A DNA stretch of 64,000 nt from positions 1 through 64,000 of the forward strand of contig JAPOPW010000074.1 of the NCBI GenBank assembly GCA_026712715.1. The letters are read 5' to 3'. The notes beneath the pieces were generated by a model. It had not been told where the DNA came from and did no database searches. It saw only the letters and a list, made by a program, of their open reading frames with translations. Source of the DNA: Immundisolibacterales bacterium (GTDB taxonomy: Bacteria; Pseudomonadota; Gammaproteobacteria; HK1). Positions 2,745 to 9,020 of this stretch are shown here, piece after piece (positions within the stretch are counted from its first letter, which is position 1; the number at the start of each line of letters is the position of its first letter). The position numbers and the translations under genes are program-made.

Positions 2745-3362
2745 ATGCCCCTTGACCAGACCGTCCGGGACCGCCTCGACGGAATCGTGGGCTCGGACCG
2801 GGTCGTGCTCTTCATGAAGGGCACTCCGGCCATGCCGCAATGCGGTTTCTCGGCCACCACCACCTCGATCCTCAGCACCCTGGTCCCCGAGTACACGACC
2901 GTCAACGTGCTCGAGGACCAGGAGATCCGGGAAGGCATCAAGGCCTACTCGGAATGGCCCACGATCCCCCAGCTCTACATCGGGGGCGAGTTCATGGGCG
3001 GCTGCGACATCGTGCGCCAGATGTTCAACAGCGGCGAGCTGCACGACGTCCTCGACCTCGAGCCGCCGGACCGGACCCCGCCGGAGATCCACGTGAGCGA
3101 CACGGCGGCGAATCTCATCCGGGACGCCCTCTCCGAGCAGCCCGGCACGGCCGTGCACCTTCGCATCGACGCGAGCTGGCAGCACGGCTTCAGCCTCGGC
3201 CGGGTCGAGGGCCACGAGATTGCGGCGGAATCGAACGGGGTCACGATTCACATGGACGTCGGCACCGCCCCGCGGGCGCGCGGCCTCAGCGTCGATCTCG
3301 AGGAAAGCCTGACCGGGGTCACCCTCAAGGTGGACAACCCGAACGTCCCGTCGAACGCCTGA
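2745..3362 (+). CDS. monothiol glutaredoxin (Grx4/GrxD type) fused to a cysteine-free HesB/IscA-like domain
   Basis: 205-residue two-domain protein. Residues 1-107 are a Grx4-type glutaredoxin with the CGFS active site at 33-36, the WPTIPQLYIGGEFMGGCDI block near 71-90 and a TVNV strand; such proteins bind and pass on [2Fe-2S] clusters. Residues 112-205 resemble the A-type carrier (HesB/IscA) fold, with IHVSDTAANLI, then HLRIDASWQHGFSLG and a terminal TLKVDNPNV. All three cysteines that ligate cluster in IscA are absent: the first motif has no Cys and the protein stops where the C-G-C motif should follow NPNV. An AATTCGGAGG stretch precedes the ATG. The appended domain may be structural or partner-binding rather than a cluster carrier. 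Confidence 0.88.
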   Translation: MPLDQTVRDRLDGIVGSDRVVLFMKGTPAMPQCGFSATTTSILSTLVPEYTTVNVLEDQEIREGIKAYSEWPTIPQLYIGGEFMGGCDIVRQMFNSGELHDVLDLEPPDRTPPEIHVSDTAANLIRDALSEQPGTAVHLRIDASWQHGFSLGRVEGHEIAAESNGVTIHMDVGTAPRARGLSVDLEESLTGVTLKVDNPNVPSNA

Positions 3363-6338: not shown

Positions 6339-6968
6339 ATGGCCGAAGTACGCGTCATCGACCATCCGCTCGTCCAGCACAAGCTGACCCTCATGCGGCG
6401 GCAGGACACCCCGACCGCGAAGTTTCGGGCCCTGCTTCGCGAGATCGCCCTCCTTCTCGGCTACGAGGTCACCCGCGACCTCGCCCTTACCGAGGCACGG
6501 ATCGAGACCCCGCTCGAGACCATGACCGCGCCGGTCCTCGCCGGGAAGAAGCTCGTGCTGGTCTCGATCCTGCGGGCGGGAAACGGGTTGCTCGAAGGCA
6601 TGCTGGACCTGATGCCGGCGGCCCGGGTCGGACACATCGGCCTGTACCGGGACCCGGAGACCCTGATGGCGATCGAGTACTACTTCAAGGTCCCGGAGCA
6701 CCTCGAGGACCGGGAGGTGATCGCCGTCGACCCGATGCTCGCGACCGCCCATTCGTCGATTGCCGCGGTGCACCGGCTGAAGGAAGCGGGAGCGCGGTCC
6801 ATCAGGCTCGTGTGCCTGGTCGCGGCGCCGGAGGGGCTCGAGGCGTTCGACCGGGATCACCCCGACGTACCGGTCTACACCGCGGCCATCGACGAACGCC
6901 TCGACGGTCACGGGTACATCCGTCCCGGCCTCGGCGACGCCGGCGACCGGCTCTACGGCACGAAGTAG
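6339..6968 (+). CDS. upp: uracil phosphoribosyltransferase
   Basis: 209-residue enzyme converting uracil and PRPP to UMP, of normal length for the family. Motifs are [12 protein letters not shown] at the N-terminus, [18 protein letters not shown], the PRPP-binding stretch [18 protein letters not shown], and the C-terminal [16 protein letters not shown]. The PRPP loop reads DPMLATAHS where most Upp proteins have DPMLATGGS, a double substitution near the phosphate-binding turn. It has a GGAGG site before its ATG and lies 43 bases behind urc4, consistent with UMP formation feeding the URC pathway. Confidence 0.93.
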
Positions 6969-7140
6969 GGTCCGGAGCGGGCGGAGGGCACGGGACGGCG
7001 GACGATGCGCCCGCGGGCACGCGCGTTCGCCGGACCGCGATCGGCACGGCCCGCGGCCCGGTCGGCGAACCTCTCCTCTCCCCCGACGTCCTCCTCGCGG
7101 AAGAATGGAGGCCGGGCTCAGATCGGGAAGCCCCTTGCCC

Positions 7141-7371
7141 TCAAGGGGCCGGGCTGCCGGTGGCGAGGCCCCTGAGCTCTCCCTGCTCCGGAAACCGCCC
7201 AAGCGCCTTCTTGGAGAAGACGAGCTCGTCGTCCACCGTGACCTCGAACACCCCGCCGCCCGACTTGACGAGCTCCACGTCGGCGCCGAATTCCATGATC
7301 ATGTCGTCTCTCGCGCTCACGGCGCGAGGTTCGTAGCCTCAAGCTCCGCAGTATTCGATCCGAACCCGCAT
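7141..7371 (-). CDS. selW: SelW-like selenoprotein (Rdx family) with in-frame UGA
   Basis: 76-residue selenoprotein of the SelW/SelT/SelH (Rdx) family, thioredoxin-fold redox proteins with a CxxU motif. From ATG 7371 the product begins MRVRIEYCGA, then UGA at 7341-7339, then GYEPRAVSARDD; the rest includes FGADVELVKSGGGVFEVTVD and ELVFSKKALGRFPEQGEL. Cys8-Gly-Ala-Sec11 followed by GYEP matches the vertebrate SelW active site (CGAUGYKP). The UGA is followed by continuous in-frame homology to the TGA at 7143-7141. AGGGAG lies about 10 bases before the ATG. A bacterial SECIS-like hairpin follows the UGA. The Sec machinery (selA, selB, selC, selD) is not in this window. It is divergent from the rhomboid gene. 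Confidence 0.9.
7310..7341 (-). promoter_or_regulatory. bacterial SECIS-like element after the selW UGA codon
   Basis: On the minus strand the UGA (7341-7339) is followed by a perfect 7-bp stem, CTCGCGC / GCGCGAG (outer limits 7328 and 7310), closing a 5-base loop CGTGA. The apical loop begins 18 bases after the UGA and has G as its second base. This fits the general bacterial SECIS pattern of a short stem within the coding region 16-37 bases downstream of UGA with a G early in the loop. SelB binding is inferred. Confidence 0.72.
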
Positions 7372-7540
7372 CGTCTCTCACTCCCTGTTCCGTCCGCAAA
7401 GGATAGCCCGGACCCTCGCCGCGCGACACCCCCGGCGCCGGGCAGCCCCTGCCGAACGGCACGCATGCGCACGGATTGGGGCGAGGATGCGGGTATGATG
7501 GCCCGTTCCGGCCGTTCCGGCCGTCCTCGCCAGCGCGCCG

Positions 7541-8245
7541 ATGTTTCCGCTTCACGACGACAACCCGACGCGCCGCACGCCGTTCATCACGGTCGCCCTG
7601 ATCGTCGCGTGCGCGCTCGTCTTCCTGTGGCAGCTCTCGCTCGACGGCTACGGCCAGCAGCATGCGGTATTCGCCCTCGGCGCCATTCCGGCGGTGCTGT
7701 TCGACAAGGCGCACCTCCCCGCGGAGCTCGTGCTCGTTCCTGCCTGGGCGACGGCGTTCACGTCCATGTTCATGCACGGCGGATGGATGCACATCATCGG
7801 CAACATGCTGTACCTGTGGATATTCGGCAACAACATCGAGGACTCGATGGGCCCGGTCCGGTTCACGTTCTTCTACCTCGTCTGCGGGCTGCTCGCGCTC
7901 GTCGCCCACGCCGCTCCCAACGCGGCCTCCCAGGTGCCGCTCATCGGCGCGAGCGGCGCGGTGTCCGGGGTGCTCGGCGCGTATCTGCTCCTTTTTCCGC
8001 ACGCCCGGGTGCTCGTGGCCATTCCCTTCGGTTTCTTCATCCACACGATGCGCATCCGCGCCGTCTGGGTGCTCGGCGGCTGGTTCCTGCTCCAGCTCTT
8101 CAATTCCGCCATGGTGGGCGCGGAAGGCGCCGGGGTGGCATGGGACGCCCACATCGGCGGATTTCTCGCCGGGGCGGTGCTGATCCCGCTCTTCAAGCAC
8201 CGCGGCGTGAAGCTGTTCGCTCCTGCCCGCACACGCATCCGTTGA
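7541..8245 (+). CDS. rhomboid family intramembrane serine protease
   Basis: 234-residue polytopic membrane protease. The nucleophile motif is GASGAVSG (residues about 146-153), the catalytic histidine is in WDAHIGGFLAG near residue 205, and the amide-stabilising HGGWMHIIGNMLYLWIFGNN block lies near residues 84-103. At least six hydrophobic helices are visible. It starts at ATG 7541, shortly after an AT-poor spacer from the divergent selenoprotein gene. Substrates are unknown. The thioesterase-like gene follows after 16 bases and may be co-transcribed. Confidence 0.92.
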   Translation: MFPLHDDNPTRRTPFITVALIVACALVFLWQLSLDGYGQQHAVFALGAIPAVLFDKAHLPAELVLVPAWATAFTSMFMHGGWMHIIGNMLYLWIFGNNIEDSMGPVRFTFFYLVCGLLALVAHAAPNAASQVPLIGASGAVSGVLGAYLLLFPHARVLVAIPFGFFIHTMRIRAVWVLGGWFLLQLFNSAMVGAEGAGVAWDAHIGGFLAGAVLIPLFKHRGVKLFAPARTRIR

Positions 8246-8261
8246 CGGACATTCGACGAAG

Positions 8262-9020
8262 ATGACCGATTTCGCCCGCACGATCGTGATCGATTCGCGA
8301 TACTCGGGTCCACCCGGACTCGGCAACGGAGGCTATGTCGCGGGGGTGGTCGCGGCAGCCCTGGGTGCGGAGGCGACCGTGACCCTGCGCGCGCCCATTC
8401 CCCTCGACACGCCCCTGGAGCTCGCCGGCAATGGGGGACGAGACGCCTCGGCGAACACCATTGCGCGCGGGACCCGCCGGACGGAGCTGCGAAGCGGGGA
8501 TTCCCTGCTCGCCGAAGGCGTGGCGGGCACCCCCGACCTTCCATCGCCGCCCGCCGTGCCCGAACGCTCCACCGCGCTCGCCGCGAGCGGGCGGTACGCG
8601 GGCCGGACTCCGAACCCGTACGAGCAGTGCTTCGTGTGCGGATTCACCCGGACGCCGGGAAGCGCTCTGCGGGTCTTTGCCGGACCGACGCCGACCCCGG
8701 GACTCGTCGCCGCCGACTGGCCGGTTCACCCGGACCTCGCGGACGAGGACGGCGCGGTGCCCGACGAGTACCTCTGGGGAGCCCTCGACTGTCCCGGCGC
8801 CTACGCGGTCGGCATCATCGACCTTCGGCTGGGGCGAATGACGGCGCGGATCTCGGGAAGGGTCCGTCCCGGCGAGCGCTGCACGGTGGCCGGCTGGCGG
8901 CTCGGCGCAGAGCGCCGCAAGCACTTCACGGGCACCGCGGTGTACGGCGAGGCGGGCGACGTGGTGGCTCTCGCGCACTCGATCTGGATCGCTCCGCGCG
9001 CGGACGGCACGAGCCCGTGA
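8262..9020 (+). CDS. hotdog-fold thioesterase-like protein
   Basis: 252-residue protein resembling tandem hotdog thioesterases. The opening reads RYSGPPGLGNGGYVAGVVAA, the typical start of such a domain. A CFVCG motif near residue 123 and a second hotdog-like half (ALDCPGAYAVGI, ARISGRVRPGERCTVAGW) follow. These motifs occur in acyl-CoA thioesterase-like proteins of actinobacteria and proteobacteria. The substrate is unknown; position before an enoyl-CoA hydratase-like gene suggests an acyl-CoA role. Spacing to the next gene is 49 bases. Confidence 0.65.
   Translation: MTDFARTIVIDSRYSGPPGLGNGGYVAGVVAAALGAEATVTLRAPIPLDTPLELAGNGGRDASANTIARGTRRTELRSGDSLLAEGVAGTPDLPSPPAVPERSTALAASGRYAGRTPNPYEQCFVCGFTRTPGSALRVFAGPTPTPGLVAADWPVHPDLADEDGAVPDEYLWGALDCPGAYAVGIIDLRLGRMTARISGRVRPGERCTVAGWRLGAERRKHFTGTAVYGEAGDVVALAHSIWIAPRADGTSP

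Follow-up and report, generated by a model that had tools for sequence, protein, structure and literature searches.

The DNA analysed here, referred to below as the window, is a stretch of 64,000 nt from contig JAPOPW010000074.1 of an uncultured gammaproteobacterium of the Immundisolibacterales. Its minus strand carries a selW-like gene that starts with an ATG at 7371-7369, meets a TGA at codon 11 and continues for 65 further codons to a terminal TGA at 7143-7141 (Table 1). The encoded protein begins with MRVRIEYCGA-U-GYEPRA. The coordinates, the length of 76 residues and the CGA-U-GYEP motif given in the initial annotation were reproduced to the base by translation of the minus strand. As had also been stated there, ordinary gene callers miss this gene, since the frame ends after only 10 residues if the UGA is not read through. 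A purine-rich stretch precedes the start codon not only here but also in most of the close relatives. No promoter or terminator of selW was recognised. The terminal stop is enclosed by an inverted repeat (GCCCCTT-GAGGGC-AAGGGGC, 7125-7155, minus strand), which lacks a T run and is not preserved in one of the related genomes (G001).

Table 1. Features at the selW locus; positions refer to the window.
Feature	Position	Strand	Description	Evidence
selW-like gene	7141..7371	-	76 codons, Sec at codon 11, then TGA stop	Read-through translation; Pfam Rdx; NCBIfam NF041051 and TIGR02174; dN/dS
In-frame UGA, predicted selenocysteine codon	7339..7341	-	Last position of the CxxU motif CGAU	TGA in close homologues and in other phyla
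Cys8	7348..7350	-	Partner cysteine of CxxU	Invariant column in 37-sequence alignment
Probable Shine-Dalgarno sequence AGGGAG	7381..7386	-	9 nt before ATG	Read from the sequence
Bacterial SECIS-type hairpin CUCGCGC-CGUGA-GCGCGAG	7310..7328	-	Apical loop starts 17 nt after UGA, GU in loop	Folds alone; clade comparison
upp, uracil phosphoribosyltransferase	6339..6968	+	Convergent neighbour	Pfam UPRTase, 4.4e-73
Rhomboid-family membrane protein	7541..8245	+	Divergent neighbour	Pfam Rhomboid, 5.5e-33

selW is a stand-alone gene between a divergent and a convergent neighbour, and the order upp / selW / rhomboid is retained in two genomes of the same genus. Two long open reading frames overlap the gene (7105-8265 on the plus and 7118-8326 on the minus strand). 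Neither has a Pfam match, and with no family match they were ruled out as real genes; they look like by-products of the high GC content. Elsewhere in the window, at 2745-3362 (plus strand), we found a Grx4-type monothiol glutaredoxin that seems to carry a fused domain resembling A-type iron-sulphur carriers, the match to the latter being weak (24.2 bits vs a cut-off of 26.3).

With U read as C in all profile searches, the product was matched by Pfam Rdx (PF10262) at 6.7e-19 (68.3 bits vs a cut-off of 22.6). This match covers residues 2-67 and thus spans the UGA, in agreement with the continuous homology on both of its sides noted in the initial annotation. NCBIfam TIGR02174 was well above its threshold (59.3 vs 34.2 bits), and NF041051 (SelT/SelW/SelH) was barely over it (88.4 vs 88 bits). 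Seven solved sequences of the SelW/Rdx family were also matched, including mouse SelW (2npb) at 9e-7. As Rdx, NF041051 and the sequences of solved structures all match, the frame does not arise by chance. The redox motif, C8-G-A-U11, follows the first strand, and both of its columns are invariant in 37 aligned sequences if U is counted as C. An AlphaFold model of the product (pLDDT 83) has the order beta-alpha-beta-beta-beta-alpha, and its top matches in the PDB are the SelW-related structures 2fa8, 2obk, 3dex, 2p0g and 2npb (E 4e-6 to 5e-4, probability 1.00). All of the 23 best PDB matches belong to the SelW/Rdx family, with thioredoxins and glutaredoxins coming after them, weakly. The modelled product has the thioredoxin-like fold of solved SelW proteins. 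Cys8 and Sec11 fall in the connection from the first strand to the first helix, which is also where thioredoxins have their active-site motif.

To see how the UGA is distributed, we compared 55 genomes around and including that of the window, 16 of which contain a homologue. Close homologues (at least 52% identity) occur in nine genomes, all from the same family, with ten copies in total, and every one of these copies has TGA at codon 11. The remaining seven genomes, two of them from the window's own family, encode an Rdx protein that is more distantly related, belongs to the YCTQCRWLLRA type and has TGC or TGT at this position. A wider search of contigs yielded 35 loci, again with TGA in 35/35, from Gammaproteobacteria, Krumholzibacteriia, Planctomycetota, Chloroflexota, Actinomycetota, Gemmatimonadetes, Bacillota and others. 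Relatives with neither Cys nor UGA, which had been named as evidence against a selenoprotein, did not occur in the set compared: the position is held by UGA or Cys only. Downstream of the UGA, Nei-Gojobori dN/dS values in the claimed frame were 0.19, 0.24, 0.26 and 0.22 against four relatives, compared with about 1 to 2 in the two other sense frames. One antisense frame was also rather low (0.19 to 0.55), which is to be expected when its third positions coincide with those of the sense frame. The substitution rates indicate purifying selection on the selW frame past the UGA. A single genome (G013) has two UGA-type selW copies (L024 and L037), which are 81% and 54% identical to that of the window. 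One of them, L024, and the orthologue L023 of genome G002 have Cys-rich C-terminal extensions (TECCTPEAVCREECPT; RCRIACCRP), which the window gene lacks.

A reported hallmark of bacterial SECIS elements, which directly follow the UGA, is a small apical loop containing a guanosine (PMC1088965). Numbering from the U of the UGA as 1, the hairpin of the window clade consists of a 7-pair stem (14-20/26-32) with a CGUGN loop and is fully paired in all five distinct sequences. Taken by itself, the hairpin of the window is not significant, as 28% of synonymous shuffles fold equally well and such hairpins are common at its GC content; support for it is therefore comparative. In the wider family, represented by 38 distinct homologues outside the window clade, a stem at 20-24/30-34 is paired in 96.8% of cells, and 33 of the 38 rows are fully paired. 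Base changes occur on both sides of this stem, with C-G, G-C, U-A and A-U pairs. By comparison, 500 redraws with synonymous codons gave 72.7% pairing (sd 2.6%, maximum 82.1%) and 6.5 fully paired rows (maximum 16). Loop position 26 is G in 38/38 of these homologues. The wider-family stem is absent from the window clade, where the stem nearer to the UGA replaces it. Both positions of the putative element fit the reported bacterial SECIS feature. Immediately ahead of the UGA, codons 5 to 10 show no difference between the window and four relatives, even at synonymous sites, which would fit an overlapping RNA signal. The two selW copies of G013 differ in this respect, one having the near and the other the far hairpin. 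We see an even chance that the SECIS hairpin stands in the near position, with its CGUG apical loop retained, across three genera of this family (that of the window, G004 and one of the two G013 copies); the clade would then be a natural experiment on how strictly SelB gauges the distance between UGA and loop.

The initial annotation had pointed out that such a gene needs selABCD elsewhere in the genome, and that a lack of this machinery would speak against it. The whole set is present, on other contigs. We found a tRNA-Sec gene (selC, anticodon TCA, 72.5 bits), selA (546 bits) and selB (414 bits) in tandem on contig C80, and selD (292 bits) just after the tRNA-Sec gene on contig C66. SelD is fused to Ndh and carries Cys, in a CGGC motif; a CxxC motif was reported for all Ndh-SelD fusions (PMC2398784). 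The contigs in question belong to a draft genome with an estimated contamination of about 5%, and two genomes of the same genus carry the machinery too. An msrA gene of the Cys type adjoins selA-selB on the upstream side (L074:5719-6369). Among the 55 genomes, selC and selA were found in 9/9 genomes with UGA-type SelW vs 0/7 with a non-UGA Rdx; one further genome (G042) has the Sec machinery and no SelW match. Of 369 genomes sampled from the class, 51 had an Rdx gene, which was of the UGA type in two. Both of these have a tRNA-Sec, as do 4 of the 49 other Rdx genomes. Because the genomes are related, these counts are not independent events.

selW is not the only candidate user of this machinery. 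Contig C4 has a CMD match that contains a single internal TGA (L125, G000:C4:62349-62510, minus strand). It belongs to a protein of about 400 residues with the motif CFYU-TSAH, which scored 432.6 bits (cut-off 175) with NCBIfam NF041238 (AhpD_rel_CFYUT). The N-terminal half of this protein contains a CAFC motif, and a hairpin follows the UGA. With this second, AhpD-related selenoprotein gene, the number of genes served by the Sec pathway of the genome rises to at least two. Formate dehydrogenase and other molybdopterin enzymes were also considered as selenoproteins: none of the nine PF00384 matches had an internal stop in the matched stretch. Beyond this genome, a SelW homologue from a Verrucomicrobiales MAG (L049:3001-3219, PAPL01000092.1) has TGA at both positions of the motif (MNVSILY-U-GM-U-NYKPQ). 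It is possibly a UxxU SelW of the diselenide type; it comes from one MAG only, and the first TGA may be a base error. In the part of the literature covered, UxxU is described in a Prx-like family but not in SelW. A search with the L049 protein found no viral relatives.

As a whole, the locus is best explained by a bacterial SelW gene encoding a redox protein, with an internal UGA that is read as selenocysteine, and we put the probability of this reading at about 0.96. According to our proposal, the ribosome would decode codon 11 as selenocysteine; SelA and SelD would take part in making the Sec-tRNA, and SelB, docked on the hairpin that closely follows the UGA, would deliver it. Sec insertion at this codon is inferred from the sequence comparisons described above, with the hairpin and the second selenoprotein gene as further, independent backing. 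The product would be a small protein of thioredoxin fold whose redox pair is Cys8-x-x-Sec11. Under translation table 11 a stop does interrupt the frame, as it would in a Cys-type Rdx gene that had acquired a nonsense mutation or been misread in sequencing. Yet the identical TGA stands at the identical codon in independent assemblies of nine genomes of the family and in many phyla, the sequence past it shows the low dN/dS (0.19-0.26) of a frame under selection, and the Sec machinery tracks the TGA form. The conserved UGA and the dN/dS values thus exclude a pseudogene or assembly error for practical purposes. A genome-wide reading of UGA as another amino acid, e.g. Trp, without any use of selenium, is just as improbable, and we found no point in its favour. 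UGA serves as the stop codon of six of nine other genes checked (the rhomboid and glutaredoxin genes, selA, selB, msrA and one more), and this normal use excludes its reassignment. Moreover, homologues align Cys rather than Trp at the UGA, and the full Sec pathway is present.

A selenoprotein might also be real but serve mainly in regulation or as a binding partner, with CxxU used for binding rather than catalysis. Mammalian SelW was reported to bind 14-3-3 via the Sec of its CxxU (PMC8508763), and the function of bacterial SelW-like proteins has been termed unclear (PMC1088965). Against such a role, which we consider unlikely, stands the thioredoxin-like fold with CxxU, as this combination points to redox chemistry. 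To our knowledge, a 14-3-3 partner is not expected in bacteria. The selW product would most likely act as a thiol/selenol oxidoreductase that contributes to general redox defence or repair, a redox role being the usual inference for CxxU (PMC1088965).

An uncultured gammaproteobacterial lineage hereby gains a selenoprotein gene of a kind that standard gene callers miss. This matters for annotation; in biological terms it is one more case of a known, widespread family. In a survey of 2006, a single selenoprotein family was recorded from Gammaproteobacteria other than Vibrionales and Pasteurellales (PMC1794560), compared with at least two in the genome of the window (SelW-like and AhpD-related).

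Bacterial SelW-like selenoproteins have long been known as an abundant family (PMC1088965, PMC2398784, PMC1794560; NF041051, TIGR02174). The window protein resembles them in its CxxU motif, Rdx domain and length as well as in the hairpin after the UGA with a G in the apical loop. It differs in its host, here an uncultured gammaproteobacterial family, and in the hairpin of its clade, which is shifted by 4 nt towards the UGA relative to the other aligned homologues. With vertebrate SelW (mouse, PDB 2npb) it shares the predicted fold and a CxxU motif with nearly identical neighbours. The vertebrate gene has its SECIS in the 3' UTR, whereas the putative bacterial SECIS of the window gene lies within the coding region, and the window protein is somewhat shorter. 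Bacterial Cys-type Rdx proteins (PDB 2fa8, 2obk, 2p0g) share the fold as well, but have CxxC instead of CxxU and form a separate subgroup (YCTQCRWLLRA); most of the genomes that have them lack a tRNA-Sec.
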